A DNA stretch of 64,000 nt from Daucus carota subsp. sativus (lineage: Eukaryota > Streptophyta > Magnoliopsida > Apiales > Apiaceae): NCBI RefSeq assembly GCF_001625215.2, contig NC_030381.2:46622689-46686688 (forward strand), read 5' to 3'. A program made the position numbers and the translations under genes. Below the pieces are notes generated by a model. That model was given only the letters and a program-made list of their open reading frames with translations, made no database searches and was not told where the DNA came from. This document shows, in pieces, positions 9,630 to 34,388 of this stretch; positions within the stretch are counted from its first letter, which is position 1; each line of letters starts with the position of its first letter.

Positions 9630-10186
9630 TCACAACAGACCCGCTTCAAAGAGATTTCGCCTTCTTAAGGTCTCGTCAACCAGTTTGAAAGTCTTCTTCA
9701 CGAGCTTCTGGTCAAGAGCAGTGGTCCTATATATCTTAAAAACTCGGTCCACACAGTGAGGGGCAGTGCTCTGAAAATATAGCTCCTCAAATTTCTTTTT
9801 CACAAACCTGAAGAAAAATAATATCAGATGGGTGTTAATATGAGTAAATTCATCAAGATGTGGTACAGGCTAAGAGGACTAGTAGCTGTTTATGCTATCA
9901 TCAAGAATATATGTCTGGTCACTCGTATTCATAAATTGATAAACAATAAAAGGCAGAACATAGATATACTATCATCCCCAGTTCCCCACAATTTATCTTT
10001 GAAAAATCTACACTTAATTTCATTGACCTAGAATCTTTAGAGTAAAGGACCATAACAACACAATGAAAACAGAATGTATCCAAAATAGCACTCTTGTTGG
10101 CCCCACCCCAGCACTTGCACAACGGAACTAAACAATGCATTTGGTAATCCATGTATGCAGGTTCCTACATCAATTAATGTAAAGTG

Positions 10187-10247
<61 letters not shown>

Positions 10248-13200
10248 GTGCATGAGGATGATATAACATGTGTGTTGTGGCATATTGGATTATATGGTGC
10301 ATGCAGAAAACTGAGTGAATTCATGTAACCCATATGTTCAGATGATAAGTGATAACGCATGTATTCCATGGCTTTGATGATATCGCATGTAAATATGAAA
10401 TACTGAAATCAAATGGGTGCACGCTTCCAGAAAACGAACATAACGTGTCGTGGACATGCGTTAAACTCTGAAGCATTTTCTATATGTGTTATCTAAGTGG
10501 CCCCCGAGAGCCAATTTTTCTGCAGTTGCTATTTTGGAAAATATTTTTATAAACTGTACTAGAGTGGATCAACACCCGAATCTTTAGCTCCAGAACTTTA
10601 GTTTTATATTATTTATTTTTGTTTTAACTTCAATTATATACACTGCTCAGACCGTTAAAATTAAATTCTAAGATAAGTAATGACCTATTTATAACTGTTA
10701 AATTCCAGTGCGAAGATTAATAATTTTTCCTCGCGTGTTGATTGTTACAAAAAGTTAATTAATATTTGCTTCACACGTGTCACACAGAGTGGAAAGTATT
10801 CGAAAAGGAGTTGAGGACTGTTATCCAAATTGGAGCATAACTGTCTACAGAGAAATTTGTCTCGCAAACATATCATAATTCCTACAGTAGTACCCATATT
10901 ATTGGCAACACAGCACAAATTATGTTGCCAATCTGGGCATTATTCACCCACAATCAGAGGATACTTTTTGCAAGAAAACAATCCCCCAGGTATGGATATA
11001 TCTTGAACTTATTAGCTATCACAATATGAAAAAGCACTTCCAGTCTTCCAATCATCTATAGTAAGGTAGTGGTAAATAAGCGGCAAAATTTGCAACTTCC
11101 TCCTAGCAGGGTTTTATAACATCAGATACCAAGTCGTAAGAGCATAATGCAGAAAAAAAAAACTTACTCATAAGCATGCTCAACTTCCTGCTTTCCCGAG
11201 TATACGGGTTGGTAATCTTTAAACCAATCGCATACATTTAATGGCACCTACATAAAAAAATTCATTCATCAAAAATAATAAAATGATGTGCCGCTTCCTT
11301 ATGTAAATCTCTACAGTTCATATGCCCTTACATCTAGAACCTTCTTCTCAAATATATCAAATTTGTTCAGAAACAACATGAAGGATGTTTTCTGCATAAC
11401 AATAAAACCAAGAGAAAGTGGTGAGTGGAGGAAATAAAGAGCAATAAAAACATCAGGAAAGAGAAACTATGTAAGCTCAAATTCTAGAAACCTCAAAACA
11501 TGGCTGCTTGAGGACCCACTCAAAGAGCTCTCTTGTCTCCATCATTCTGTTCCGGTTCTCATCCTCAAAAAGAGTTTGATCATACCTGGAATCATATATG
11601 ACAAAAACAAATCATATTACTAGTATACAGAAATAAAATATGTTAACTGACTATTAGCACCACTGAAAGAAACATCAAAGTAATGGGTATTACAAGTTAT
11701 TAGTATGATAATAGTAATTATGTTTCAGGTTGCAGCATAAGGTTTTAATTTCAAACATGCAACAGTCTTATAGAGAGAATAATTCTTACTCACTAACAGC
11801 AGCACAAAAAATCACAGCTGTAACACCTTCAAACAGATGAATCCATTTTCTTCTCTCATTTCTCTGACCTCCAACATCAAATAGTCTATATACTTCACCA
11901 CTTTTTTTGTTCTCCCCAACCGGGCTGCAGGTATCAAGATCACAAATAAGTAACCGCCAAGAGATCATAAGCAAATTATAGAATATGATTTGTGGCAAAA
12001 AGTGAAGACACTAAACATACAGGGTAACATCAAAGGCTTGCATGTCGCCATTCTCGTACAAAATGCAGTCAAGATGCTATAGAGAGCACTAGATTTATAC
12101 TAATGCAATATGGATATAATTTCGATGATGTGGGGATGTGATAGCCTGATAGGATATACGTTGTGCTTAAGTAAAAATTTATGGAGATGGAAATTTAAGC
12201 AACTTTTGGCGGAAGGAAATGTATACTTCAGAAAACAGTGGCTGTCGCTTGCCAAGTGAAAGTATACAGTGAAGAGAACAATATTGATTTATATTCTAGG
12301 CAAAAAAACAAATGAATCTAACCACAGTTGCATGCCACCATTGGGGGTGCCATCATATATACATTTCGTTTAACTGTAATTATAGCAGCTACTAGGACCC
12401 AAAATGAAAACAAAGAACATCATACAAAAAATATATAGCTGAAATATAACTTTATGGGGGACGAGACATAGATTGCAAAACCAAATTTGCAGAAAATGTG
12501 ATGCAATATATATAGCCCAAAGAGCAACTGATGTTGAAATGAAATTTATACAAGATTTACAATCTACAAATAATAAGTTAATTCTCTATAGAAAATTACC
12601 AACTCTTATTCAGAGAAAAACAAAATTAATGACATCCTATAGATTATGGGTTTTAAAATTATGCATACTTAGGTTGTATATACAAAGATGCTTCTGTGTG
12701 CTAATACCTTGTTGACATCAGAAGGAAAAATGATCACTTCAATACATAATGTACTCCATATATAACAAAATTCGATCACTAATTACTTTGAAAGGGAAAC
12801 CTCAGATCTTAACCAGCAAGACTAAAAATAAAATGATAGATTTAAGCGCTGAACAAATAAATCACCTGAACTGAATTTCTACAACACCAGATGTACGGAT
12901 CCTTGCATAAAGAACATCCTCCTGCAAAGAAGTACAAAAACATAACAAGTTATAGCCTTAATACAGCATGTAAATTAGAGAAAGTTTTACGAAAATAGCC
13001 ACTTCTTTCAATATACAATTAACCACTATCTTTCCAGGCTATAGTTTCACAAATGTATTCAAAATATATTCATTTGGTTGTAAAGACCAAGGTGGAAAAA
13101 GTAATCTTACAAGTTACAACTATTGCCCTCGTAACACATTTATCCTAAAATGTGAGAGCTTAATATATTTCCTCTTAACTAAAAACTGCTAGTGATTACA

Positions 13201-15939
13201 AAATATATAATAAAATATAATACGTGTAAGTTCTAACATTGAATACCTTTGTTGGAATATAATCTGCAACAGCCAACCTTTGCAAATTTTCCATAAAATA
13301 AAGAGTGCAGTCAGGAACTTGGAGTTCATTACCCCGCGAATACGTTTCCTGCAATAAATGAGTAATCTCAACACTTGCAAACTTTATCATGTGATAATTG
13401 CCGAAAAACAGAGAATGGAACCATTTATGATATAACTTGCATGCTAATCAAAGTTGATTAAAGTTGTATCCACAACTACACTGTAAAACTGAATTTATTT
13501 ATAAAAAAAAAATACCTGTATCGCGTCGTCTTTCCAGAGAGTTTCTATTTCTTGAGCAAGCTCTTTAGTGAGGCGAGGATAATCCAACCTGCCACCAATT
13601 TCCGACAGTTTCTCCCCTATTTCCTGAATACACAATTATCACAATTAAATAAGTATCACAAAACCAGTTCAATTCTTCCACCTAGTTTAGAAAGCACAAC
13701 CGCGTTATGTCCTGTTCTAAAGCTTTGAATAAAAAGGAAAGCAGATGAAAGAAATATAGCACCTTTATTTCATCCGATAAGGCATAATTTGATGATTCTT
13801 CTTCATTTTGAGCCAATTCCTTTGCCCCGTCATACAATATCTGTTCAGGCAAAGTAAAAAAAATTCAATATTGATCCAAGTTCCAGAATATAGTTTTGTG
13901 TTACAATGAAAAAACAAAAAATAAATGCTGCAAGGTATTCCTTCTAAGCAGATAACAATTTATGTGTTACTCTGCAATAAAGGAAATAATCAACACAAGC
14001 TTACAAGTATCGCATACTTTTATTATCTGATACACATTTGCATGAATAACTGTAATATAACTCTTTAGCTCTGCTTCATTAAATCCAGTTTGAAATAGAA
14101 GTTTTATCTGCAAAAGGCTTGAGAAAACATCAGTCTCCATACATGAAAAATACTATAAATTTTATGAAAGAAATTTATGAGGCATGAATATTTTACCTGT
14201 TTAAAAATCGTCGATTTTCCCGACTCTCCAGCACCTTTACATTAAAAAATACACGACATCAATTACCCCAAAAAAATGTATATGATACATGCGTGAATTC
14301 ACTTGAAAGATACATACGTGAATTCACTTATTTAACTATTAAACACGGTAAGCATTTAATAGCTCATAAAGCCACATGTCACTCCTCTAGATCCATGAAT
14401 TATACAAATACAACACAAGTTTCTAAAATGTACAGATGTATAGAATAAGGATAAGAGTGCAGCCAATAAGGATGACGTCAAAAAAGTCTCATCAACTACA
14501 CATATTGTATAGTGTTCAATACTTCAATTAGATAGCAGAATTAAAATATCAATTGGCCACGTCTAGCAGTCAATTTTCATCTTCATTACCCAGACTCGGC
14601 TGGGAGTGTCCAACATAGATGTGACCAAGTGTCGAAATCAACAATATTTTCAAGAAATTTACAATTTTTTTTAAGTAAGTGTACAAGTGTCAACTGTCAA
14701 ATACAGGTAAATGAGACAAAATGTAGAGTACAAACTTTTGATTTCTTTCTGACCATACAATATGAACATATACATCATTCAAAAGTCAAAAGACAACGCC
14801 ATCCAGTATGAAAAGAATGTATTATGAGATCAACAGCGCCGAGCGGCCGACTGTATAACATGACAAGAAAATTTTCCTTAAGACCAATAGCAGCTAATTG
14901 CTCCATAAATTCTAAGAGTAGTCCATTAAAACAATATCAATCTAACATTGCCTTTCAAGTTAACATTTGAAATTATATCTAGTTAAATTACCTGGCTAAT
15001 GCCTAAAATCATACAAGCTATTCTCCTTGTAAAACTATTTTATCCTTTAATCAGAAATCTAGCACATAGGAATATCCATTTTAAGTATTCTGATTAAAGT
15101 TTAACGAGTTGAATGGTTTTTAGGTTGACAGTAACTTGTATTTTGTAAATAAAATAAACAGTTCAAACTTCATTGGTGTTATGGAACATAGAATTCATTT
15201 TAGTTAAGTAGAATGAATTAATGTTACTCTAGTTTACTTAAGTTACAGGTGATATTATCATTTCACTTGCATCAGGCCTTTGCTAATAGAGGTTTATGAC
15301 TAGGCTTTAAACCAAATTATACATCCACTTGTTCTGCGTTAGACACACACAAGACTTTACTTAAAACCAAAATAATAGACAAAATTGTGATTGCATGGCA
15401 GTGGCTTTCTGTATAACATCTTTATATACATATTATAATAAAGAAGACCAATACCTCAAGCCCAAGCAACCCACATCTTTAAAGAGTACAAAGTCTAGGC
15501 AACGATTATAACAACACTAAGACACTGTTGAAACATTGATGTACTGGAGCGCATAAGATTAGTACATTGAACTCACTGATAGTTAATGGGAATACAATCA
15601 TTAACATAAGTTAATGCAACCCTAACTTGAGAATTATATACCAAGTAAAAGAAGCTTCTGTATATGTTTCTCTGCCTTTGTTTCTAGCTCAATTCGCCTT
15701 TCTATTTCTGCAGTCTGGAAAAAATTAGTTGATTTAGTCCAAAACAATATCAAAGTGAAGTGTAGGTTCTCAATTCTATATAGAATGCGTCCTTTAAAAC
15801 TAAAAAAATTCTCTAGTTTGTGCAGTTTTACTTTAATTACAAAACTTATAAGAAAAATAATAAATCACAAAGATTCCACCTGTGCATTTTCTTCGGAATC
15901 AGCTGGATTGTGTCGCTGTTTACTGCAGAGAGAACCCAT
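9630..15939 (-). CDS. GPA1: Heterotrimeric G-protein alpha subunit
   Basis: Encodes the GTP-binding alpha subunit that pairs with G-beta/gamma at the plasma membrane. Thirteen exons: 15939-15880, 15714-15642, 14234-14197, 14107-14018, 13840-13763, 13623-13516, 13348-13247, 12921-12866, 11924-11790, 11585-11492, 11391-11332, 11247-11168, 9807-9630. Phases agree and the product is 383 aa, the same length as Arabidopsis GPA1. Visible motifs: N-terminal MGSLCS (myristoylation Gly2, palmitoylation Cys5); P-loop GAGESGKS at 45-52; switch I RIRTSG with Arg190; switch II DVGGQR with catalytic Gln222; NKFD at 287-290; TTALD near the end; C terminus [10 protein letters not shown]. Everything needed for GTP binding is intact. 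A TATTTTCAG-like acceptor just 5' of the ATG (near 15955) suggests a 5'UTR intron. Intron 12 contains a long (AT)n tract. Divergent from GCR1. Confidence 0.97.
10191..10244. repeat. (AT)27 microsatellite in GPA1 intron 12
   Basis: Uninterrupted AT dinucleotides for 54 bp, within the 1360-bp last intron of GPA1. Self-complementary and likely length-polymorphic. Confidence 0.95.
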
Positions 15940-16169
15940 ATTTTCTAATACTGAAAACAGCATATAAAAGTGCACTTGTCAAGCTACAACTGGCATCACA
16001 AGGCCCGACCCCTTAGTTCCCGTCCAGCTCCCACCTTGAAGCCTGCGTAGATCAGCCATACACCATCAAAAGTATACAAGTAAAAGCAGCAAGCAAAAAA
16101 ATACTGTATAATAAGATCAAAAGTCAATCGCCACGTCACCTTTATGGTACATTATGTATAATACACTTA
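15940..16169. other. GPA1 5' flank, likely 5'UTR intron
   Basis: No coding sequence. On the minus strand an acceptor-like TGTTTTCAG lies 12-20 bases before the GPA1 start, so the untranslated leader is probably split, with the first exon near the CT-rich stretch at 17.2 kb. This is an inference from splice-site shape only. Confidence 0.4.
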
Positions 16170-16435
16170 GACCATGTTTGTTTAAGTATTGTAATCCCCG
16201 GACAACTACATTATATCTTCAAATTTAAGGGATTATAATCCCATGGGATTGTATTGCAATCACCTTTTGATTCATTGGTATGGATTACAATACCTTCGCT
16301 CACAAGGTATTATAATCCCACGGAGATGAACTAAAACAATGATTGAAATATGAATTTGTGGGATTACAATCCTTTACATTTGAGATAAATAAGGTAATAA
16401 TCGGGGGATTATAATCCCTTCTAACAAATATGGCG
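16170..16435. mobile_element. PIF/Harbinger (Tourist-like) MITE, 266 bp
   Basis: Terminal inverted repeats GACCATGTTTGTTTAAG at the left and the complement of CGCCATATTTGTTAGAAG at the right, with TTA flanking both ends (16167-16169 and 16436-16438), the target size expected of PIF/Harbinger elements. The arms contain repeated GGGATTATAATCCC-type words. A related copy lies at about 31546-31804 inside GCR1. No coding capacity. Confidence 0.7.
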
Positions 16436-18721
16436 TTAGTTTCGCATAAGGCCGGAAACAATTTTCATATCATAGATGACTTGCAACAAGTTTGAAAGAT
16501 TTAAATGTGTTAGGTAACCTAGTAGATTACTTGCAAATGTATGACGAATTAGCTTTAACCTTTACCCGTCAAGATGTTCAAATAGTCTAGTATATCCTTT
16601 ATAATGCATATAGTTAATAAAAAAGTGGCAATTTGTGCTCCATTCATCTCATTTCCAGAAACAATTTAAGACCTATTCATCAAGTCCAAAACCAATGCAG
16701 AAACTTTAAGATAACAAATTTATCAAGTACAACAGATATTTAGACAGTCTACAATCATCAACATAAACTTTTTCAGTTGACATTGTATTCAGAACCTAAA
16801 AGCAACCAATCACACTCAATTCCACTTGAGGAACAAATCCAAAATTCAGAAAAGAAAAATCAGAATCTAAATTTTCCACAAAAAGAAACAAACAACAGGC
16901 ATCAACTCAAACCCAACAAAAACATACACAAAACAAACGGTAAATTCAACATCAATCAAACATCAGTAAATTTCCCAAATAAAAAACAAATTCCCAGTAA
17001 AAAAACAATTAAACCATACAGAGTAAAATACACACATTTCCCCACACAATTCACACAGTCATAACAACATAAAGCCATTCAAACTATCATTCTTCTAAAG
17101 ATTGCATATTGACATTATCACATGTCAAAACAGCCTCATATGAATGTCAAAAAGCGATATAAAAGAGACAACTTTATATAATCGCGAGAGATAGAGAGAG
17201 AGAGAGAGAACCAGAGAGAGGGAGTGACGGGAGATCGACGACGGTGGAGAGATCGGAGAGAGAGCTGTGTGTGTATTTTGTGTGTGTGTGTGTGTGTGTG
17301 TTTTTTAACTACAGAGTGACTAGTTTCTAACCATAGTCAAATTTGGACATATGTTAGTATATACTGTACAACGTATGTGTGTAGTTTATTTACATGTATG
17401 AAAAGGAAAATTGGCTGGATTTCGGCGTACACACTTTTGACTAAGACCCTATGCCTTTTTGACCGGTCAAATTCATTTCAATCCTTGTCTGTTTTGCTTC
17501 CATTTCTTCTTGTCTATTTTCAACATTATCGACTATGCTTGTGCCACCGTCCAACCGGGTTCAATTGATTTTTTTTATGTCAGGAGGTTCAATTGATTTT
17601 TTACTAAACTACAAATGGGTAGAATTTCTTATTGAAAAAATCATTTAATTAGGCAGAAGTGAGTTGCAGACCCTTAATTTTTTGTGAAAGGAATAATTTT
17701 ATATAAAAACTCAAACTCGTTTATCATCAATCGAATGAGTAAATTTCAGGAGTTTGGTTACGTTTTACATGGATTTATAAAATTGTGGCTGAATTTTAAA
17801 ATTTGCAGAATGGTGAATGTATTTCGACTCTACCTTTCAAAATGTTGACCCCCGTTAAATCTACCTAACGGATGTAGCAGAGTAACGGGTACATCTATAT
17901 TTTTAAAATTTATAACGGGTCATATTATATTCATTCGGGTCATATAGAACCCGAACAAGAGATACAGGAAATACAATGCAAAACACACCTATGCACGTCA
18001 CCATCCACTCTCATCATCTCTTTCCACCATCTATCTCGCAAACAATCTCTCCCCCTCAAACCTCTGCCCATGAAACCGTCGACAAATTGTTCAGATGGTA
18101 GACAACAATATTGTGGGTCGGCCTATCCTACTCGCCAGCCCAACCTGGTACCGGAAAACCCCTTTTTCGCTGTAGGTATATTTTGTGAACTAATTGTTTG
18201 TATTCTGTGATAAAATGATTCATTTTGCGAGTCTTGTTTAGGAATAAATGGTTTCAACATCCCATGCAAGTCTTCTGTACTCTCATTTCTCTTTGCTCCT
18301 TGTACATTTAGAATGATAAGATTGTTGGGTTATTCCTCGTTGATCGATTAGGGGTTGCTGGGTGAGTTGACTTTTCGGCAGTGGAAGCGGCGGTGTAACT
18401 TCTGATCATCAGGTGATGATCTCAGTCATCATACATATCTCGATGATAAGAGAGGAAAGAGATTGAGTGAAAGTTGAGAGAAATGATGGCGTTGACTTTT
18501 AACAAAAGGAGACAAGCGGCAGCAGGATTAAATCGGAAAGAAAGTAAAAAGAGTAAGGAGGGTTCGCTGAAGAAGAGACTACCCAATTTTGTTAACTTTA
18601 TATTTTTACGTAACCGCCCCTTCACTTTCGCTGAGAGGTGATGTATTGACTACCTTAATTGAATGTTACATGTTACTGCATCTTCATTTAAGGCGAATTT
18701 TTAACATGCTTTGTGTTCATA
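16436..18721. other. Intergenic with GPA1 leader region
   Basis: Contains a lysine/asparagine-rich open frame at 16777-17064 without recognisable domain (not supported as a gene). At 17186-17212 there is a (GA)n tract, CT-rich on the GPA1 sense strand and typical of plant 5' leaders, and at 17263-17306 a (GT)n tract. The likely GPA1 transcription start is near 17.2 kb. Between 17.6 and 18.7 kb I see no gene. Confidence 0.45.
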
Positions 18722-19172
18722 GGATGAAAGCAATCTTAAAGATTATCCGAGTGAATTGAAAGCTATTCATGGAAAGGAGTTCACTTTCAAGATTGAGCTC
18801 AATGAAGACAATATCCTTCTCAAGAGCACCGTGTACAATGCTACAGATGCATTTGATCGTGAATTCACAGTTTCGTCAAAGTCAGAAGCAAGTACCTCAG
18901 ACCTAGAGATCACTGGCTACAAAGATGTAGGTCTATATGTCACTTGCCCACACGTTAACATTATTATATCATTGTACAAATACTATATGTTTTCTTTTAC
19001 TGAAGAAGGCCGAAGATGTTGCAGATAATGGGAATACACCAGGTTCAGCCAAATCGTGCAGCAAAAAGATAAAAATGGTTAAATTATTATGTGCAGTATG
19101 ATCATATAATTTTAATCTTGCAGGAAACTTGAGGAAGAAAATGGCACGCACCAGCTATGCATTGATTGATTC
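18722..19172 (+). pseudogene. RPA1-like (replication protein A large subunit) fragment
   Basis: After an acceptor at 18721 a block reads SELKAIHGKEFTFKIELNED, followed by STVYNATDAFD and a serine-rich stretch up to about 18929. This pattern resembles the C-terminal OB-fold domain (Rep_fac-A_C) of RPA70-like proteins. A second block (about 19007-19078) gives AEDVADNGNTPGSAKSCSKK, a linker with a basic patch, and a third possible exon begins near 19124. The zinc-binding residues and all upstream OB folds are absent and no start codon belongs to it. RPA1-like genes are commonly carried by plant Helitrons, and a Helitron-like 3' terminus lies 300 bp downstream. The domain call rests on short motifs. 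Confidence 0.55.
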
Positions 19173-19439
19173 TGTGAGGAAGGATCTAGCTTATGCATAT
19201 TTGTTTCTTTTGAACATGATTTCTAGCTAAAACAATATTCTACGACGCTATATAATTCATGTATCGTATTTAAAGTTATTGTTGACTTCAAAGTGACGTG
19301 GCTTATATGTATGTCTGTTCGATAATAAAATATATACATGACAAAAATATTCACTTACTCCTCTCGAAATAATATATCTCTTTATCACCGCCAACAATAG
19401 CTAATAATATATAATTTTGGATCAAAGAAAAAGGAAAAA

Positions 19440-19470
19440 TTCCATGTGCGAAGTACGGGCAAACAGCTAG
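19440..19470 (+). mobile_element. Helitron-like 3' terminus
   Basis: Sequence CCATGTGCGAAGTACGGG followed by CAAACAGCTAG and then T. This has the plan of a plant Helitron 3' end: a short GC-rich hairpin (here with substitutions), a few bases, then CTAG with insertion before T. The matching 5' end was not found. Together with the RPA1-like fragment upstream it suggests the remains of a larger Helitron. Confidence 0.5.
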
Positions 19471-19793
19471 TGTTTTTAAATGAGCTAACAGCTGAAAACT
19501 AACCACTAACGGCAGTCAATTTTTCGAAAGGTTGAACCAAAATCCAGCCACCATTGTGGAAATTTTAAAATTTATCCACATTTTTGCAAATCGATGTAAA
19601 CGTAGCCATACTCCTGAAATTTACTCCTTATCAAATTTTAATTGTCAACTAATATTGAGATACGAGTTTAAATCGAATTGAATTGCTCAATAATGACATA
19701 CTTTAATGAGAGATAATATAGAATGGTTATGACCGATATAAAGTATGTTTTAGATTTCACAAGATATTTTATTCAATACAACATTTCTGTATA
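19471..19793. other. Spacer between Helitron end and fold-back MITE
   Basis: AT-rich; nothing recognised on either strand. Confidence 0.4.
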
Positions 19794-20347
19794 GGGTTAA
19801 TTATCTAGTTGGTCACTGAAGTGGGTTTAATGTATCAAATTAATCACTGAAATGAAAACGGTATCAAGATGGTCACTAAAGTCACCATAAATATCAAACA
19901 AGTACCCCGAAATATAAGTTCAAGCAGTAAAACTATTATTTATAGAGTTTTACACATTATTTATGAATGTTACCACAATCAAGTGAAAGGTTATGACTTC
20001 TAGTATTTATGATAATATATTTAGATTTTATCAAGTTTATTTATTATTTATTTTTAATTAAAACAAATAAATTAACTATATAATAAAAAATAAATAATAA
20101 AAAAACTTGGAAAAATCTAAATATATTATCATAAATACTATAAGTCATAACCTCTTAGTTGGTTATGGTAACATTTAAAAATGATGTGTAAAATTCTATA
20201 AATAATATTTTTATTGCTTGAACTCATATTTGAAGGTACTTGTTTAATATTTATGGTGACTTTAGTGACCATCTTGATACTGTTTTCCCTTCAGTGACCA
20301 ACTTGATACATTAAGCCCACTTCAGTGACCAACTAGATAATTAACCC
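19794..20347. mobile_element. Fold-back Mutator-type MITE, 554 bp
   Basis: The element starts GGGTTAATTATCTAGTTGG and its right end is the inverted match. The inverted repeats run through almost the whole element (about 260 bp per arm) with scattered mismatches and a short AT-rich centre. A perfect 10-bp target-site duplication TTTCTGTATA flanks it (19784-19793 and 20348-20357). Long inverted repeats with 9-11-bp duplications are characteristic of Mutator-like elements. No open reading frame. An RNA through it would form a long hairpin. Confidence 0.9.
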
Positions 20348-20357
20348 TTTCTGTATA

Positions 20358-21370
20358 TTAGTGTTAGATACAAATATCAAAATTGTATAAAAGATTAAAG
20401 AGAGTAGATAAAATATAGGTCATTAACATTGAATTAATAAGTTGAGATATATGGATAAAAAGATGAGATTAATATTTAGGTTATAAAATTTTATTTAATT
20501 CAGAATATTTAAAATATAAATATTTAGAATATCTCTGTTATTTATGTCGAAACTTGAATTTCACTGCTGGATTAATTATTATCTTTGAATTACTTGCATC
20601 AATTTGTATCATTTGCATATTGTTTCTCAATTTTATAGTTGTTAGTTTTGTAATCAAAACCAAGCCGAACCGAGATTTTTAGAACCGAATCCGAACCGGC
20701 AGTTGTGATCTTGGATTTTAAAAAACCGAAGATGTGGTTACAATTTTATCCAAAAATCGAGCTGAACCAGCCTATACTCTTTCCTAAATATATGTATGAT
20801 CCTGCATCTGCTAATAAAAGCTTTTTAATGTTTAAAACAATATACATAATAAATTTCAAAACTAAGTAGGATTCTATCTCAAAATTGGTAGTAAGCTTTT
20901 CTAGTTGGACTTTAATTGGGTTTGTATAATTAATTGAAAAGAAAATATTGAAATAAGAAGAGGGCTAATATTTTAAAAAAATATGTGAGAGCTTAACATC
21001 TCATTTTCAGGAAGAAGCTTGTGGAGAAAACAGTGAAAGCTTTTTGTCTAATTGTTTTGTTTCTTCTAAAAACAAACTCGGAAGCACAATATGAAAAGAA
21101 AATCTTTTCATTCTATTATACTCTCTTCTCTGTATATTATAACTCAAAAACTTGGGGATAAGAACGGGGAAGGAAAGAAAAATGAATTTTGTCTATCGTC
21201 GATTACTGAACCGGACTAGAATATCTGACATTATAATTTTGGGACGATACAAGAAGCTGTACATATATTATATTTGAACCATCAAAACTCGAAAGTTTGG
21301 CAAAATGGTACTCTACAAGTAAAATAATTGAGAAAACTAATCCATATCTTGCAACAAATTAATTAAGTAT
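20358..21370. other. Hydrolase 3' flank and repeats
   Basis: Contains the AACCG-type remnant annotated separately; otherwise AT-rich without recognised genes. The final 200-300 bases are the probable 3'UTR of the alpha/beta-hydrolase. Confidence 0.4.
20654..20786. repeat. AACCGAACCG MITE right-end remnant
   Basis: Similar in order and orientation to the right half of the hAT-type element at 25188-25952: AAGCCGAACCGAG, GAACCGAATCCGAACCGGC, AAACCGAAGAT, then ATCGAGCTGAACCAGCC and the terminus TACTCTTTCCTA. The left half is missing, so it is a degraded relative. Confidence 0.6.
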
Positions 21371-23539: not shown

Positions 23540-23680
23540 GATTTTAGGTTAGTGTGGGGTGGGAAATGAATGGTGAGTTTGTGTTTTTGTGTTGCGTTTT
23601 GGTTGGTTGGTTGTTGAGGGAGTCATGGCGTCATAGTTGGGCAAGTCAAATTCATATAGTGCAAGTTTATACGGAGATTA

Positions 23681-23902
23681 TCCCTCTATCCCATTTTAAG
23701 TTTGACTTTTCGACAAAGGTGTAAAAAAATAGTATCTACGCTCAATAAAAAGATTTAATTCTTATATCAAATAAAAGTTTAGATTCTTAAACTTTTATTT
23801 GATATAAATTTTATAAACAATAATTATGTTTGTATGTGATTTTTTTAACACCTTAAAATACGTGTAAAAAAATCAAAAGCAGTTAAAATGGGACGGAGGG
23901 AG
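23681..23902. mobile_element. Stowaway-like MITE, 222 bp
   Basis: Left end TCCCTCTATCCCATTTTAAG, right end the inverted match of CTCCCTCCGTCCCATTTTAA, flanked by TA on both sides (23679-23680, 23903-23904). Size, TA target and CTCCCTCCGTCCC terminus fit the Tc1/Mariner-related Stowaway group. Confidence 0.75.
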
Positions 23903-25179
23903 TATTTTACATGTTTATGTGTATCATTTTAGAATTTGGAGTAAAACGTTCCTCATATTGAATTTTTTAAAAAAAAAATAAATTACCACACCATTGTTTG
24001 ACACGTATTTAAAACTTTTATAAAATATAATTTTATAAATTATTTTTAAAAATCTTTATTTTTATAAAAATCTAAATATTTCTCTCTACGTCCCACTGGA
24101 TTCTTTACGGTTTTCTACGTCCCACTCGTTTTTTTACATTACAAAACTTTTCTAAAATAGTTAATGGGTCACCGCTTTCCCACTTTTCTTCTCTTTTCAC
24201 ACTACTTTTATTCCACTACCTCTCTTTTATATATTAAAAATCAATAGGTCCCACACCTTCACTCACCTTTCTTTCTCTTTTCCACTATTTTATACATATT
24301 TTTCAACTTTCGTGCCCAAAATCATTGTAAATAATTGGATGGAAGTATATTTTAACGGATTATTGTAAATAATTGGATGGGAGTATATTTTTACGGAATA
24401 TTCTCTATTACACCACCGTACAATTGACTTATGCGAATAATATCATCACATTTTTTACTACTATTTGTGATTATTATTTACTTATGATTTTACATATAAT
24501 CCCCGAGTTATGAAAATGTAATATAATTTATTTCAAAATATTAAATAAACTATAATTAAATTTTTATTAAAAATATATAAAACAGACTCTTAAATCATAC
24601 AAACTGATTCAAAGCATAATACAGGGTTATCATAAAAAAATTGTGATGGTACCATTGACAAAAGACAATTATACGGTATACCGTAGTTAATATTTTTATG
24701 TTTATTCAGAAAAGTTAATCTATAATATTTTTTATGAATTTTGGAATTCATGTCGATTCCCGACCGAGAAGGAGTGTTTAAGACTCTCTCCGTCCTTTTT
24801 TAGTTGTCACATTTGATTTTGTACCCGTCAAATTAATCAAAGTTTTATTAATATTTATTAATATTTTATCATTTGAAAAAATAAAAAAAATATGTCATCG
24901 GAAATAATTTGGCTATCCCGTGTATACCGTGGGCACGATAACTTTTAATCTACTTTAAAATATACTTTTCAGTTTTTGAAGAATAATGAAAGAATTATTT
25001 ATAATCTTTGATAAAAAATTAGTCAAATTGACCGATAACAATACAAATGCGATAACTAAAAAAAGCAGGGAGTAATGTTAATGCATGTAGCTGATTATAA
25101 AATTTGGAATGTACCAAAAAACATGTCACCAATCCAGTTTTTAGCAGTTAGCACCGGCTATCTCAGACTAAACCCCGCA
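23903..25179. other. Intergenic, MITE-rich
   Basis: AT-rich. Around 24085-24400 there are repeated GTCCCACT phrases and a doubled TAAATAATTGGATGG word (24329-24390), probably decayed MITE pieces. At 24784-25072 a Stowaway-like pair of ends (CTCTCCGTCCTTTTTTAGTTG at the left, the inverted CTCCCTGCTTTTTTTAGTTA at the right, followed by TA) defines another likely element. No genes recognised. Confidence 0.5.
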
Positions 25180-25187
25180 ACAAGCAG

Positions 25188-25952
25188 TAGGGCTGAGCAA
25201 AAGGAAACCGAAATCGAACCGAAACCGGAAAAAACCGATCCGAAACCGAAACCGAAAAATTAAAAACCGATCCGATGTAAATGGTTCGGTTCCGGTTATA
25301 CCTCCCAACCGAACCGATAAAAACCGAACCGAACCGATTATTAAAATAATAATAAAATAATAAATAATATATGTAATATATAATAATTATATAATATATA
25401 ATATATATCATGTCTAAAAATCAATAAATCTATTCTGATGCTTAAAAGAAACATAAGAGTGTGTTAATATTTCATGCTCGGTGAATATATCATTTGCTCA
25501 CTTCCAGTTTGCCACTACCAATTCTGTATCTTCTATTTTCTATCTGGTACCTCATTAACCCATTTTCTCAATCATCCTGAATCATGCGTCAAAAAAGCCA
25601 CCTCCATATGGAGATGTCTACCATGAAGTTCTGATCTTATGATATATGATATTCAGCATGAGAATTCCAGAGCTAGTTTCATATTATTGACAGAAAGTTA
25701 TATTAATTATTATGTCCAGATAACGCGCACCAATTTGTCTCGATCGTGTATTATTTTTCATTCTTATATATGTCGGTTTTATAACCGAAACCGAACCGAA
25801 TATAACCGAACCGGTGTTTTTTAAACCGAAACCGAACCCGAACCTGAACCTGAACCGGCGGTTGCGGTTTTCAATTTTTAAAACCGAAGATATATGGTTC
25901 CGGTTCCGGTTTTATCCCAAAACCGAGCCGAACCGGCCCATGCTCTCCCCTA
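25188..25952. mobile_element. hAT-type MITE with AACCG repeats, 765 bp
   Basis: Terminal inverted repeats TAGGGCTGAGCA (left) and TGCTCTCCCCTA (right), 10 of 12 positions matching, are flanked by a perfect 8-bp duplication ACAAGCAG (25180-25187 and 25953-25960); one more A matches outside. Both subterminal regions are packed with AACCGAACCG and AACCGAAACCG words, largely in one orientation with GGTTCCGGTT copies opposite, while the centre is ordinary AT-rich DNA. An 8-bp duplication with TAGGG termini is typical of the hAT superfamily. There is no transposase. Confidence 0.85.
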
Positions 25953-26384
25953 ACAAGCAGTATGTATACATGTCGCAACTCGCTGAATGATGAAACAGAA
26001 AGAGGAAACAATTGCAGGCTTTAATATGAGAGATTCAAGTTGTCAAGTTGTCATAGAGCTTGCAAAAACCGGACGAAAAATTCACATGTTTAAAATTTAT
26101 CATGACTAAGATTTGTGATCATTGTGCAAATCCTTAAAAGATGTGATATCATATCAACAAAAAAATATTTAATTTAATATTTTAGTTTACAAGTTCACAG
26201 ATACACTTGATCTGACTGAAAAAAAAGAGAGTAACATTTGATAGATGATTTAACAATTATTTTACGCACTGGATTTAAGGGTCTCAATCCGCAAAGTTTA
26301 TATTGGTATGAATTTAACGCTCAAGTTATTTTAAGAAGAGAGAAGACGAACACGACGCCTGATACAGTGGGAAAAAAAATATTC

Positions 26385-26465
26385 GACGCCTGAGAGATTC
26401 GAACTCTCGCGGGGAAACCCCATGTACTTAGCAGGCACACGCCTTAACCACTCGGCCAAAGCGTC
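26385..26465 (-). tRNA. tRNA-Ser(GCT)
   Basis: 81-nt class II tRNA on the minus strand. The acceptor arm pairs GACGCTT with AGGCGTC (one G-T pair). The D-loop sequence is TGGCCGAGTGGTTAAGGC, the anticodon loop CTGCTAA gives GCT (26430-26432), the long variable arm is ATGGGGTTTCCCCG, and the T-loop is AGTTCGAATCT. It sits about 155 bp upstream of the GCR1 start, transcribed in the opposite direction. No CCA is encoded, as expected for nuclear genes. Confidence 0.95.
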
Positions 26466-26620
26466 ATGTTGCTTTTTGACGGATTTAAATAAAGTCATAC
26501 TCGTAGTCCTTTCCTAAATAAAATTACCCCAATTTGTTGTAATGAAAACCCTAGACACAATAATTGGACAAGATTTCCAAAAAGCCTAATTGAATTCACC
26601 GTCGGACATCGCCGGCGGCG

Positions 26621-29600
26621 ATGGCGTCATATCAGGCGATGATGGGGAACTTAACGGCCGAAGATCGCCGGATTCTGACGTCACTGAACACCGGAGCATC
26701 AAGTCTGTCATTATTAGGATCAAGTTTTATTGTGCTTTGTTACCTTCTTTTGAAAGACCTTCGCAAGTTCTCTTTCAAACTCGTCTTCTTTCTCGCTCTC
26801 TCTGTATGCATCTGAACTTATCCTATCTCCTTTCGTGTCGAATTGTATTCAGTTTTTTAATTGCATTTTGTTTCATATTGTGAAATGTATGTCGAATCGT
26901 GCTTTTAGTTATTATTTGTTTTCCAATGGCGGAATTTCTGATAGTTGGAATGCGTGTGAGAGGAAAATGTAGGTGCGGAAGTAAGTTGATGGTCTCCGAG
27001 CATTGAGATCGCGTAAATTAATTACTTAGGATCTACTTGTTTAGGATCTGGATGATGCCAGTATATACAGTTAGGTTTATGAAGTAAATAAATGTGTCAT
27101 ACTTATTGTTACTGTTGTTATCATGAATTGTTAGAGCACTTCTGATAAAAGATAATTGATGGAGAAGAATGATATTCATAATTTTGGAATTGGTGCTCAG
27201 AATTGTTAGTTAATTTTTGGTGACAGTGTAGGACTACTGAAAAAAGGTTTTATCCGACACGTGTTGTTTTGTTATATTAAAAGTGGCACTGACTTTACCT
27301 GTATGTTAAACTCTGAATTTGGTTGTTGGTACCCCTCGTTTATCCTGAAAAATTTGTTCTTATACAAGCTCCGTATTCTTGTATTATAAAATAATTGCCG
27401 ACGTATTTTTCTCCAGTATTGCTTTTAATGAGTAGGATACTAAATTACTAATCAACTCTACTTTTTTTGAACCCCGCAGGACATGCTATGCAGCTTCTTC
27501 AGTATAATTGGGTATACATATTAGATTGAATTGAAACCTGCTTCTGTTTCATATCCTTGGACTATATTTACCAGATAATATATTTAATGCTTATGCAGGG
27601 ATCCATCTAAAGGGTTTTTTTGTTACGCCCAGGGATATAGCACCCATTTCTTTTGTGTCGCTTCTTTTCTGTGGACTACTACAATTGCATTTACTCTTCA
27701 TCGTACTGTTGTTAGACACAAAGCAGATGTAGAGGACTTGGAGCCTATGTTTCATCTGTATGTTTGGGGTATGTTTTGATTAGTTGTAATTGTTTAATAT
27801 ATGCGAGATCAATTATGTGTATGTGAGTATGTCACCAATGAGCTTGCACCCCTAATGTCCCTGATCCGCTATCATTACAGCTTTGAAATGTTTATCACTT
27901 TATCTTTCATAGGAACTGATGTTTGCACAGTATTTCTACCACTTAAGAATGGGGTAGGTCCCATCATTCCGTAAGAACTTCGAACCACATGTAGGGTTAG
28001 CTGTTTTATTTGATTAAACTATTTTTTTGACTTCCCAACAACTGAAAATTTTAATGTGGTTTAGTTGATTAAGATTTTAAAAACAAATGTTTTCCAGTTA
28101 AAATCTATTTTCCTTTCCGTTAGAATGTTATATCAACTGAGACAAATGTTTTCTTTATCTACCGGGAGTACTTGGTTTCAGCACATTTCAACATACAGTT
28201 CCAGTGCATTTTAAAGATTAAGCAAGTTGTTGGGGATTTTTTTTCTTACAATTTCTAGAACTCTTCTTACATTTTCTAGAACTGGTTCTTGCACAATCTA
28301 CTTTTAATTTTGTACCACCTTATTCTTGTTAGCTGCTACATTACCATCTTTTTCTTGTTAGCTGCTACATTACCATCTTTTTCTTGTTAGCTGCTATAGT
28401 AAAGCTGAGTTGGATTTTTAAATAAATATGCAGGAACTTCATTATTGATGACTGTGATGCGCTCCATTAGTAATGACCACGAGCATATAGCTCGTGTAGG
28501 TGCATGGTGCTGGACAGAGTCAGGACGTGCAGCAAAGGCAAGTATCTGAAGTCTTGGATTCAGGCAATTGGCATTTATATCTTGCATTATTCTTTGCTTG
28601 ATTTCATGAAACTTAGAAGAATCACATATGCATGTTCTTCAATTAGATCATTTCCCTATTTATCTGCTTTAGCTTGTTGAGATGACTGGGAATGGGAAAG
28701 AAGGGTAATTGCAATATTACTATCGATGAGACGGGTTCCACCATCTAATTATGAACTCTTTTTTTTTCCTTATAATCTTGTATGTTACATTAAGTGAATA
28801 GCGCAGGACATAGGTTTCAGTAAGCAGCTCGTCAATTCTTTTGTAAATTAACCTTTTTTATCGTATCTTTTGATAACTGATAGTTAAACCTTGGCAAAAA
28901 TTGTTGCTCTTGTTACAGTCATCAAAAGTGTAGGCTATGAACTTGTAAGTTATGCTGATTTAATGTTGCTAATTTCTGCAGTTATGATCCTGAATTACTT
29001 ATAATTCTGGGTGTATCATCTTTTTTCGTTGACTTATATTTGTAGTCTGTGCAATGTGGTTCTCTGGATTCTATTTATAGTCTGTGCAATATGGTTCTTT
29101 CAGTCATACAGGGGCCTTTGTTTTGGGTATATGAATAGATATGATATCTGTAAGAGTTTCTTGGTATATATACTGTATACATATGTATATCATGTAATTA
29201 TGCAAATATATACTTTCAAATACATATTTTTGTTCTTTAATATTATGTCAATACATGACGTATCAAAATAAACGTTGATGGTATCATTGTAAATTTTAAA
29301 TTATCTTTTACTAAAGAAGAATCTTATTGCTATTTGATCATGATACAAGAGATAGAGATTACTTCTGTCATATATCAAAATTGTGCCTTAGCTTCTGTCG
29401 CCAACCCTTATCCTTTCATATTTAGCTATGGGGCTATAATTATTCATCTTAAGATTGCATGGTTGGTACCAAGATGGTTGAACCTTGGTGCTCAAGATCA
29501 TCTCCTTTCAGGCCTGATAGTGAGAGTTGTTAAAAAACCAACATTGCATGTTGATGAGATATGATTATTATATTCTTTGCATGTTTTGCATTTGACCTAT

Positions 29601-32600
29601 TAATTTATTGATGTTATATTTGCTCCTGTCTGTAGGTTGTTCACTTTGTAACATTTTATGCTCCACTATGGGGTGCAATTATCTTCAATGGAATTACCTA
29701 CTTCCAAGTGATACGAATGCTTAACAATGCAGCCCGTGTATGTGCACGCATCTCATTAGTATTCTCTTGTATTTTAGGTTTAGAGTATCTCAGCTTTTAA
29801 ATATCTAATATCTTTTGTGGTTCTGCTGAGTTCATATGCCCACAATTATCTGATATTGAATTTTCAGATGGCAGTGGGTATGGCAGATCGAGCAGTCCAC
29901 ACAAATGCACGAACAGACATGAAGGTACTCTTCTTATATTTGTTCTTTTAAAGATAGCCTGCTTGGGTTAGAACTTGGAATAGTAGTTTGTTTGTTAAAA
30001 TGGTCTATTGTGAATATATGGTTCTTTTGCGACGCTAAATACATGTTTGATCCTCCTTTTTGCTCATCATATCTGTTTCTTTTTTTATATTACCTTCCAT
30101 GTAGCCATATGCTTTCTTTTCGAGAATTAAACCCTTTATTTTCAGTATGAAATATCTTTTCTTTCTCTTTTATAGGTTCAGACTTCAGATGAACAAATGC
30201 ACTTCTAAATTTTTTGGCTTTTGAATTATTTCTTTGTTTACAATGTTGAATGTACATTAACGACATCTTGGCTGAAACTCTATGTTCAATTTATTTTATT
30301 AATTCAGGTATATAATGTTTGATATACATACAATTAACCTTATGGAAATTTAAGAATTTGCTGTAACAATTTTTATATATGCTATAAAAATATGTCACTG
30401 TTCAATACCTCTATATATGTTTATTCCTAGTCCTATGGAGCAGGACCAAGCAAAAGCTAATGGGGGAACAAGATTGATACTAACGGGGGTGTATTCGATT
30501 GGGATTTTAATGGATTGTTTTTAGTCTATGGATTTTAATGGATTGTTTTAATTTTGTGCGGATTCTTGATAAAATGTCGCAGAGTTGATAGGATTTAGGT
30601 ACAATGCTTCAAAATCCCATTGATTTTGGTGGGATTTCAAAAAACTTAAAATACACTGAAGAATGCCACAAAATCCATCATTTTATGAAATGAAAAAAAA
30701 TCCATCAGCATTTGAATACCATCAGATTTTAATGGATTTTAAACAATCCCAATTGAATACAATCGGATTTTAAAGCATAATTTAAAATCCCAATTAAATA
30801 CCACCAGATTTTGTAGCATAATTTGAAATCACAATTGAATACCTCAAGATTTTAATGGATTTCAAACAATCCCAATCGAATACCCTCGGATTTCATGAAT
30901 GCAAAAAAAATGCTTTAAAATCCCAATCCAATACACCCCTCTAAGATTACAGTAACAATCAAAATAGAAAACAAAGGACGGAGTGAAAACCCTAAATGCA
31001 AACTTATAAAGATATAGTTGTCAAATTTTGTTTTGTTTTGTGATGGATAATAGACTTGGTTGATTGTACTTGTCACCTCAAACTTTGAAGTATTATTGTC
31101 CTCGAAGTATGTTTGCTATAGGGAAGACCTAAAGATAATTAGCACAGTGTAGTACATTCTATATAATTTATTAAATAATGAAGGCTACTTATTAGACACC
31201 TAATATACTAGATGCTTGGTTGGTCTGGCATTAACTTTACTTGACCACACTAGGTATCATTGCAACCTCACACAACTAATATCTAGTGTGTGACCCCGAG
31301 TCTCAGTCTGTCATTATGCCTAGTTCATGTATAGTATCTTACTATTAAATATTCTTGATTAAACATGAGATTATATTATTTGCTTTTCTGTGAACTGTGT
31401 TATCCAGACTCTAAGTCCTTCTGGATGATACAAGTGTCTGGGTGTTTTGGACAGTTCAAATAATTAAAGCAGTCTAATGATAAGCTACATTGAGGCCTAT
31501 GTGATGCTTTTTTGGATCCATAGTGTATGTCATATGGAAACATAAAGCCAAGTTTGTTTAAATGGAATGTAATACAGGGGCTATCACGCGATTTACCTCA
31601 AATTAAAGGATTATTATCCTATAGATCTACATTTTGATCATCTTTGTAATTCATTTCTATGGGATTATAATACCCATTACTACCTCATAGAAATTAATCA
31701 AAAAGATGGTTGATATTTAGTTAAATGGGATTATTGTCCTTTAAATTTGTTTTTAAAAAACAAGGTTTAGTCTGGGCTTTATAATCCCTTGAAACAAACA
31801 TGGTAGTGAAATAGTGAATAAGATGCCTATTCATCATTCATGGTGCAATTTCTGGTAAGACAGGATTGTATCTGCCCTGTTGTTGCAAGTTGCAATATGG
31901 TGTTTAAATCAATTAACAGATTTGGGGATGTAGTTGCAATATGAATTATTTACAACTTCAGTAGGCCCTTTTGTAACTTTTAGCTTAAAAACTTTACTCA
32001 TGTACTTTCTCATCCCCATACATAAACATTACTTATGATTTCTCTAACTTGTACATAAAAAGGAGTTAAGACAATGCAATTTGTTAGCATCAATTACCAA
32101 TTCAGAAGTTACCAAAAAAAGCATTTTAAGTCTTTGAGGTATTACTGGAACAAAGCAATGAGTACTATGTTAAGTTGACATTTGTTTTGGGACATTTAGA
32201 AAGGATAAGTGGACAATAGTACTGGGAGAGAGCGAGTTCAGTTTCCACATTACTTCTTGGGTAAATCATGCATTTTAATCTGCTTGTTGCCAATATATGC
32301 AGCCGCAAGCTAGCAAAAGATTGAAGTAAGTTGTCATAGTATGATTTGCTTAGTCTTTTTTATATGTAGTTTATATACTTACTACTATCTTTCAGCGTGT
32401 ATTGGTCATAACTCGTAACATTTTTGCCTCGGCACATTGAAGAACTAATTCTCAACAGACATTGAGGCCTAGTGCCTGTTTTTAATCTACCTCTGTTTGC
32501 ATTTTCTTGCCTTCTAGGCACTAAACCGGTGGGGTTACTACCCACTCATTCTTATTGGTTCGTGGGCTTTTGGCACAATCAATCGCATTCATGACTTTAT

Positions 32601-34388
32601 TGAGCCAGGCCATAAAATCTTTTGGCTTTCAGTTCTTGATGTTGGTATGGCTGCACTTATGGTAATGTCTCTCTCTCTCTCTCTCATGTTTATATTTAAT
32701 CAGCACCTAACACAAGTGGCTTGGTACTTGTACTTAGCTGCTCCCTAATTGCTCTTGTGCTTTTCTGTCAGTGCCTTAAGCTTTGCTCTACTGAAAAATA
32801 CAACCAATATGCTATCTTATATCTTATATCTACATTGGAAAGAAATTGAGTTTCATAAAGTAGATATAATACATGCTTGTGCCAATATGACTAAATAAGT
32901 TATGCTTCATGTAACTGTATGGTTGTTTCGACTTCTTTGTTTAAAATGTTATTGTAATGCTTGCAGTTGAGGATAATTTGTGTATTGATCTTACTAACTG
33001 TTAGGGTCTGTTCAACTCTATTGCTTATGGGCTCAACTCTTCCGTAAGAAGGGCGATTCACGAAAGGCTGGATTTGTAAGTCAAAAGTTTTGAGCTACTT
33101 TACTTTTAAGAACTTCTACACTTTCTAACATGTTTACCATTGATATGTTGCACGTTAAGGCCCCATGTCCATTGAGCTAATTTTGTGCTTACTAGTGATT
33201 TTATCGTGATTATATAACTCGACTTCTAAAGGTCCTTTATCCATATTTTTGCATTGGTGTATCCATGGGGACACAGTTATTTAAATGATCCTTCACCAAA
33301 TGTGACGTGTCTTTATTTTGATTTTGGAAAAAACAATGATAGAGTTACTGTTGCTGTATAAAGTAAATACTAATTGCAAACTTAACGCAAAAATTCCAAT
33401 GAGTTATGTAACACGTCAATTCAAAATATAGTATGATCCAAGCATTTACAAGTGGAAATGGGTTATCTGAATTGGAATAGGGGGATTATTGTGTATTTAG
33501 GTAGTTTCTATCTCTAACATATCTTTATGATGATTCATGTGAATACTAAACGGGTCCAGGTCCCTAGCATATGTATGCTGGGTACCTGTTAAATAACATA
33601 CAGGTTCCTGGCCGTTGGATGAATATCCAGCGGTGAGGATTAAAACATATTTTTAATACGTCCAGCGCTTTTAAAGCGCTGCATGTATTAAAAATAGGTT
33701 TCCCCCGTCCAGCGCTTTAAAAGCGCTGGACGTATTAAAAATATGTTTTAATCCTGGCCGCTGGATATTCATCTAACGGCGAGGAACCTGTATGTTATTT
33801 ATTTAACAGGTCCCCAGCCTACATATGCTAGGGACCTGGACCCATATTAAACGCCCAGGTTTATTTCTGAAAATTAGTTTAGCATAGATAATTCTTAATA
33901 TAGTGTATCACTATATTTCTTGTTCTGTCTGTTGGTGCCTTTCCTACACTCGTACATGCAGTCTCCACAAAATTTATCTTTTAAACCTCGTTAAAGATAT
34001 ACATATATAGGTGTGGATGCCAACAGGTATTTAGAACTACAGTATGATGTCTATGCATTATCTTCTGGAACCAACTGAGTAGGATAAATTGATTTGCACC
34101 TTAGTTTCCCATGAAACGCCTTTTTTAAAATAATGGTTCTGCATGTTCATTTATTGATAATATATGATCCATTTAGTGGCTTCTACTTGAACCTTAATGT
34201 CTTAGAAGAGATGATAATGTGCTATATTCGTATTTCTAATAAGATAAAGCCTGAAATGTCTGGGTGTTTGCACATTTATTTTTAGGTTACCGGAAAGTGT
34301 CAAGAGATGGTTGCCTAAGATGGCAAAGAGCAGAGGCCAACAGGAAGAAAGTGAACTGTTATCGTTAAAAATTCAGGATCAGCAATAG
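26621..34388 (+). CDS. GCR1: Seven-helix GCR1 protein (cAMP-receptor-like)
   Basis: Nine exons (26621-26803, 27480-27511, 27599-27768, 28434-28537, 29636-29737, 29868-29924, 32518-32661, 33005-33075, 34286-34388) give 321 aa, close to Arabidopsis GCR1 (about 326). Family phrases: NTGASSLSLLGSSFIVLCY (helix 1), LRKFSFKLVFFLALSDMLC, FFCYAQGYSTHFFCVASFLW, TLHRTVVRHKADVEDLE, WCWTESG, HFVTFYAPLWGAI, FNGITYFQVIRML, LNRWGYYPLILIGSWAFG, RIHDFIEPGHKIFWL, LFNSIAYGLNSSVRRAIHE. Seven hydrophobic segments and a short polar tail ending QDQQ. GCR1 is plasma-membrane located and reported to bind GPA1 in Arabidopsis; whether it is a true GPCR is disputed. Intron 4 starts with GC (AAG then GCAAGT). Introns 6 and 8 contain MITEs. 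An upstream ATG at 26590 opens a different frame and is not the start. Confidence 0.97.
28323..28400. repeat. Three 29-bp tandem repeats before GCR1 exon 4
   Basis: TTCTTGTTAGCTGCTACATT begins at 28323, 28352 and 28381 (period 29 bp; the third copy is truncated and diverged). The array is pyrimidine-rich and ends about 35 bp before the acceptor of exon 4, so it lies where a branch point and polypyrimidine tract would be. Confidence 0.85.
30484..30941. mobile_element. PIF/Harbinger-like MITE in GCR1 intron 6, 458 bp
   Basis: Left end GGGGGTGTATTCGATTGGGA with following TTTTAATGG; right end the inverted match of GGGGTGTATTGGATTGGGAT. TAA flanks both sides (30481-30483, 30942-30944). The interior repeats many ATTTTAATGGATT and CAATCCCAATTGAATAC words. 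The 3-bp target and termini fit PIF/Harbinger. Confidence 0.7.
31546..31804. mobile_element. Second GTTTGTTTAA-type MITE in GCR1 intron 6
   Basis: Ends AAGCCAAGTTTGTTTAAATG and the inverted match of CTACCATGTTTGTTTCAAG, with internal GGATTATAATCCC-like words. Same family as the element at 16170-16435. Target-site duplication not clear. Confidence 0.5.
33552..33843. mobile_element. Mutator-type MITE in GCR1 intron 8, 292 bp
   Basis: Begins GGGTCCAGGTCCCTAGCATA and ends with its inverted copy; almost the whole element is one inverted repeat. Flanks ATACTAAAC (33543-33551) and ATATTAAAC (33844-33852) differ at one base, a 9-bp target-site duplication. The interior carries nested palindromes around AGCGCTTTTAAAGCGCT (near 33663) and AGCGCTTTAAAAGCGCT (near 33711). 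No coding capacity. It is transcribed with GCR1 and would fold into a long GC-rich stem. Confidence 0.88.

Follow-up and report, generated by a model that had tools for sequence, protein, structure and literature searches.

The window analysed here is a stretch of 64 kb (64,000 nucleotides) of the Daucus carota genome, at positions 46622689-46686688 of contig C1. On its minus strand lies a gene for a canonical plant G-alpha subunit, GPA1, whose coding sequence (9630-15939; 13 exons, 1152 nt including the stop codon, 383 aa) was assembled manually from its exons and verified with a script, with GT-AG borders in all 12 introns. The deduced protein carries a complete G-alpha domain (Pfam, 353.6 bits, residues 20-371) including the GAGESGKS P-loop and the DVGGQR switch, and its top match in the PDB is 2xtz (E 6.1e-203). 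In alignments it is identical at 330 of 384 columns to tomato G-alpha, at 322 of 383 to Arabidopsis GPA1 and at 287 of 384 to rice G-alpha; 39 of its 40 final residues are the same as in Arabidopsis GPA1.

The second gene of the pair, GCR1, occupies 26621-34388 on the plus strand and encodes 321 aa (966 nt including the stop codon; 9 coding exons, modelled in the same way). Its assignment follows from a Dicty_CAR-type domain (Pfam Dicty_CAR, 63.6 bits, together with 7tm_2), from its presence as a single full copy and from its closeness to Arabidopsis GCR1, to which it is identical at 240 of 329 alignment columns. Seven of its eight introns have GT-AG borders; intron 4 (28538-29635) is GC-AG, with a GC donor. 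Intron 8 contains a MITE-like fold-back (33590-33801) with 92-nt arms that are 96% complementary. The splice models bear out the preliminary description, which had reported an intact GPA1 of 383 aa and an intact GCR1 of 321 aa: coordinates and lengths were both right.

A search of the whole genome (441 Mb in 11 contigs) with GPA1 gave 26 matches, 11 of them in the window gene and 15 at nine other places with 34-43% identity. By this level of identity the nine places are putatively XLG-like, and no second copy of GPA1 was found in the genome. Two of the XLG-like genes stand in tandem at C2:55.68-55.70 Mb; Arabidopsis presumably has three XLG genes, fewer than the nine places here. The corresponding search with GCR1 placed eight of nine matches in the window gene. 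The ninth, at C1:29.62 Mb, is a fragment that covers only window positions 27235-28059 with 86% DNA identity, corresponding to the end of intron 1, exons 2 and 3 and the start of intron 3 (1168-1983 of the piece read). Scraps resembling an ABC transporter and DnaJ surround it (by eye), a setting reminiscent of the capture of gene fragments by mobile elements. This match was rejected as a duplicate gene, given its limited extent, its 86% identity and its unrelated-looking surroundings.

Other components of G-protein signalling are located elsewhere. All nine matches to an RGS1 query fall at C2:46.37 Mb (46-63% identity); a search for the RGS family found nothing here and nothing in the controls either, and is no sign of absence, the RGS1 query having matched. 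With AGB1 as query, 51 matches were obtained, and G-beta has two strong places among them, at C1:24.37 Mb and at C6:20.63 Mb. GPA1, at C1:46.63 Mb, is thus unlinked to RGS1, which is on another contig, and both G-beta copies are far from it. Each G-beta copy is itself near an XLG-like gene, at C1:24.08-24.37 Mb (281 kb) and at C6:20.63-21.01 Mb (386 kb, or about 380 kb if taken between the nearest match ends). We take AGB1 (At4g34460) and XLG2 (At4g34390) to be close together in Arabidopsis also. When two G-beta and nine XLG-like places were distributed at random, at least one G-beta copy fell within 385 kb of an XLG-like place in 3% of trials and both did in 0.02%, figures to be read with the copies not being independent and the 386-kb spacing lying just above the 385-kb limit. 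The two linkages probably represent a duplicated segment.

GPA1 and GCR1 are transcribed divergently, and their coding sequences are separated by 10,681 bp (15940-26620), which confirms the divergent orientation and the spacing of about 10.7 kb given earlier. One protein gene lies in this interval, on the minus strand at 21371-23539 (low end approximate): an alpha/beta hydrolase gene of 4 exons and about 303 aa, whose first exon matches Pfam Abhydrolase_1. Enumeration of splice sites left four variants that fit, with open frames of 299-303 aa. A tRNA-Ser gene (anticodon GCU; 26383-26466, minus strand) stands between the hydrolase and GCR1, 154 bp ahead of the GCR1 ATG and probably inside the GCR1 promoter or leader. 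The statement that a single hydrolase gene separates the pair is therefore right for protein genes and incomplete as regards the tRNA. An open reading frame scrap at 18723-19025 had no Pfam match. The 56.3-Mb contig contains no N in the 64-kb window or in the 264 kb that were read, so that there is no assembly gap between GPA1 and GCR1.

In their divergent transcription the two genes resemble gene pairs with bidirectional promoters. Such pairs, however, start within about 1 kb of each other with nothing between, whereas the coding starts of GPA1 and GCR1 are more than 10 kb apart and enclose two genes, the hydrolase and the tRNA. A promoter common to both is implausible in view of this distance and of the gene between.

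The wider neighbourhood was examined over 100 kb to the left and 100 kb to the right of the window; positions are given in window coordinates, negative values being to the left. Across window and flanks the order is 3betaHSD/D - CID7-like - GCR1 - hydrolase - GPA1 - ERECTA - PEX10. The CID7-like gene (38821-43154, plus strand) has a PAM2 motif in its first large exon and an Smr domain in its last. With the exons searched apart, PAM2 scored 20.0 bits, at the Pfam cut-off, and CUE (18.5 bits, cut-off 21.1) and Smr (23.2 bits, cut-off 25.7) fell below theirs. Between this gene and the next, at 45646-46341, are two 244-bp direct copies, 98% identical and 452 bp apart. The 3beta-hydroxysteroid dehydrogenase/C4-decarboxylase gene (3betaHSD/D; 49357-57773, minus strand) matches Pfam 3Beta_HSD on three exons, and an exon with a Pfam Reticulon domain at its low end would belong to the same gene. 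Its Arabidopsis counterpart At2g26260 presumably carries a reticulon domain, and a paper on reticulons reportedly contains this code. Outside the block, a single exon at 61605-61850 (minus strand) matches Pfam GATase and was named CTP synthase-like by eye; the genes beyond 3betaHSD/D, in the window and to its right, resemble by eye CTP synthase and a GALS-type glycosyltransferase. The Arabidopsis counterparts of these two genes are, we assume, on chromosome 4, and the block resembling At2g26 seems to end beyond 3betaHSD/D.

To the left of GPA1, the kinase region of ERECTA is at -23.6 to -22.3 kb on the plus strand, and exons with leucine-rich repeats, recognised visually, extend to about -28.8 kb. 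Three pieces of it are 89.6, 82.9 and 74.1% identical to ER and 78.4, 74.8 and 61.0% identical to ERL1, ER being the nearer in all three. PEX10, which we take to be At2g26350 in Arabidopsis, follows in minus orientation between about -45.2 and -40.1 kb, where the Arabidopsis protein as query matched in 10 pieces with 39-87% identity. At least one more gene is located between ERECTA and GPA1, represented by an exon that matches GH9 glucanase with 100 bits in Pfam. We know of no counterpart of this glucanase or of the hydrolase in the Arabidopsis At2g26 segment, where At2g26290 is presumably a kinase gene and not a hydrolase. Pieces resembling FAP2 were noticed by eye at about -11.9 to -7.8 kb, also between ERECTA and GPA1. 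Three short pieces had no Pfam match to chalcone isomerase, one of them giving a weak match to PTP_N (E 0.089; 0.098 on rerunning); a longer first-exon piece had no Pfam match, one piece had no PDB match, and the exon joins that were examined by eye did not fit. FAP2, which is At2g26310 in Arabidopsis and by its code lies between GPA1 and ERECTA there (PMC9039136), was consequently not counted as a member of the block.

The order of the Arabidopsis genes was read off their locus codes, which follow the chromosome. Read in this way, At2g26260-26280-26300-26330-26350 reproduces the D. carota order without GCR1: 3betaHSD/D2, CID7, GPA1 and ERECTA, and PEX10 if At2g26350 is taken as such, stand in the same sequence, microsynteny being defined by a conserved order of at least three non-homologous genes. 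The codes are those published for 3betaHSD/D2 (At2g26260; PMC10649741), CID7 (At2g26280; PMC5712850, PMC13120122), GPA1 (At2g26300; PMC4156303) and ERECTA (At2g26330; PMC6068134), and At2g26350 is printed in PMC3633942 without the name PEX10. GCR1 is absent from this segment, being At1g48270 on another chromosome (PMC4156303); both Arabidopsis loci were given correctly in the preliminary description. This comparison also bears on the assembly. A false join of two separate loci is hardly conceivable, since the 264 kb contain no N and the genes on either side of the pair belong to one Arabidopsis segment. At1g47290 and At1g48270 were not used as a sister block of At2g26, because the chromosome 1 region that holds them presumably pairs elsewhere, with chromosomes 3 and 5. 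The first of these two codes is 3betaHSD/D1 (PMC10649741).

Rice would retain a different part of the block. Its GCR1 is a single homolog (PMC2530877), LOC_Os06g09930 (PMC11195488; PMC2530877), at 5,060,660-5,065,027 (PMC13088633). In one table LOC_Os06g09890 is annotated 'smr domain containing protein', the entry for LOC_Os06g09930 being 'G protein coupled receptor' (PMC10095077). The ERECTA locus is LOC_Os06g10230, and LOC_Os02g53720 is a second copy (PMC6068134). A mapping interval within 122.1 kb comprises 20 genes, LOC_Os06g09910 to LOC_Os06g10109, of which two are named, the receptor and a decarboxylase, and the others are called 'unknown'; the two names are swapped in the discussion of that paper relative to its results (PMC4049401). 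Judged by locus codes and annotations only, the order Smr gene - GCR1 - ERECTA is the same as in D. carota; other genes separate GCR1 from ERECTA in rice. By its annotation alone, LOC_Os06g09890 would be the CID7 ortholog. For an assumed total of loci, rice GCR1 would lie no more than 30 loci from one or other ERECTA copy with a chance of about 0.2%. Unlike in D. carota, G-alpha appears to be outside this arrangement: the rice gene, RGA1, is, we assume, Os05g26890. That code heads the list of rice G-protein genes in PMC4156303, and no G-alpha is named among the genes covered for the chromosome 6 segment, which run up to Os06g10109 and resume at Os06g10230.

Arabidopsis and rice thus appear to keep complementary parts of the D. 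carota block, and for this reason the ancestor common to D. carota and Arabidopsis most simply had GPA1 and GCR1 adjacent. We consider it very probable that the closeness of the two genes is inherited microsynteny and that this ancestor held the whole block. The ancestral arrangement, and the way in which it changed, would be as follows. The ancestor of D. carota and Arabidopsis would have carried 3betaHSD/D - CID7 - GCR1 - GPA1 - ERECTA - PEX10. D. carota would have kept this block, and the Arabidopsis lineage would have lost GCR1 from it, the gene being now on chromosome 1. The rice block would retain CID7-like - GCR1 - ERECTA, with G-alpha on chromosome 5. The exit of GCR1 in Arabidopsis and that of G-alpha in rice may have occurred by transposition or, following a genome duplication, by the loss of one of the copies. 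If D. carota is taken as a eudicot, in keeping with its GPA1 being closer to the tomato and Arabidopsis proteins than to that of rice, the place of GCR1 between CID7 and ERECTA would predate the monocot-eudicot split. The place of GPA1 in the block would date back at least to the ancestor in common with Arabidopsis; for the monocot-eudicot ancestor, a gain in eudicots and a loss in rice fit equally well. The joint presence of both genes in the ancestor is a parsimony argument, as they are found together in neither Arabidopsis nor rice.

Inheritance from an ancestor was among the options of the preliminary description, and the complementary gene orders of Arabidopsis and rice support it. A gene order common to no other angiosperm had been named there as evidence against the linkage; each half of the block appears to be shared, but GPA1 and GCR1 occur together in neither outgroup. 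A more recent and fortuitous origin, in which GCR1, with or without the hydrolase, moved between GPA1 and CID7 in the D. carota lineage, would agree with the near adjacency of CID7 and GPA1 in Arabidopsis (At2g26280 and At2g26300), where GCR1 is on another chromosome, and the fragment at C1:29.62 Mb indicates that GCR1 sequence can be copied elsewhere. Such a move is nevertheless unlikely, because in rice, too, GCR1 has an Smr-domain gene next to it and ERECTA not far off, and the same place would have been reached twice. The chance that two named genes have at most one gene between them is about 1.1-1.5e-4 (27,000-35,000 genes assumed), and rises to about 5-6% for any of 430 possible partners, 430 being what we take to be the size of the GPA1 interactome. 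The pair is therefore improbable by itself and unremarkable once the number of partners is allowed for.

It might be supposed that the linkage is maintained by selection, for co-regulation or for the co-inheritance of interacting alleles. The interaction of GCR1 with GPA1 was reported in Arabidopsis with support from split luciferase, and in a published model the C-terminal helix of GPA1 contacts GCR1 (PMC11843928); this helix is nearly unchanged in D. carota, and the loose linkage of G-beta with XLG-like genes in two places (about 281 and 386 kb) could be viewed in the same light. However, disagreement over the interaction has been noted (PMC6456573), the status of GCR1 as a true receptor of GPA1 is disputed (PMC11843928; PMC6456573), and RGS1 is termed the confirmed primary regulator of GPA1 (PMC11843928). 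Seven of eight 7TM candidates tested by split ubiquitin bound GPA1 (PMC2530877), which makes partnership alone a weak criterion. Linkage is not required for function, given that the interaction was detected in Arabidopsis, whose GPA1 and GCR1 genes are unlinked, and that RGS1 of D. carota is not linked to GPA1 either. With GPA1 and GCR1 unlinked in both Arabidopsis and rice, a shared promoter implausible, RGS1 on another contig and neither G-beta copy near GPA1, selection for linkage is very unlikely, and the option of joint inheritance or co-regulation, also raised earlier, finds no support. The closeness of the two genes is probably inherited rather than required for a joint function of the proteins, and the linkage itself probably does nothing: GPA1 and GCR1, if they act together, would meet at the plasma membrane irrespective of the positions of their genes.

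As in plant metabolic gene clusters, genes of one process are adjacent; unlike in these, GPA1 and GCR1 are two signalling genes among unrelated ones, and their grouping is broken in both outgroups. A broader proposal would posit a G-protein neighbourhood of angiosperm age or older, composed of a G-alpha/GCR1 block and a G-beta/XLG block, the first being kept in D. carota and some relatives for a small benefit in allele compatibility or expression domain, from which Arabidopsis and rice escaped. This scenario is speculative and quite unlikely.

The GPA1-GCR1 pair is a new case of conserved microsynteny, an arrangement that is well known in general. Among the matches listed from the open-access literature, the linkage is stated in no title or opening of an abstract, and the accessible part of PMC5924551 contains nothing on gene order. 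The linkage by itself is no evidence for GCR1 as a receptor of GPA1. The debate on GCR1 could draw on a comparison, offered by nature, of co-expression and co-evolution between species with and without the linkage. GPA1 and GCR1 gain a common positional history, and the block shows where orthologs of both genes are to be sought in other genomes.
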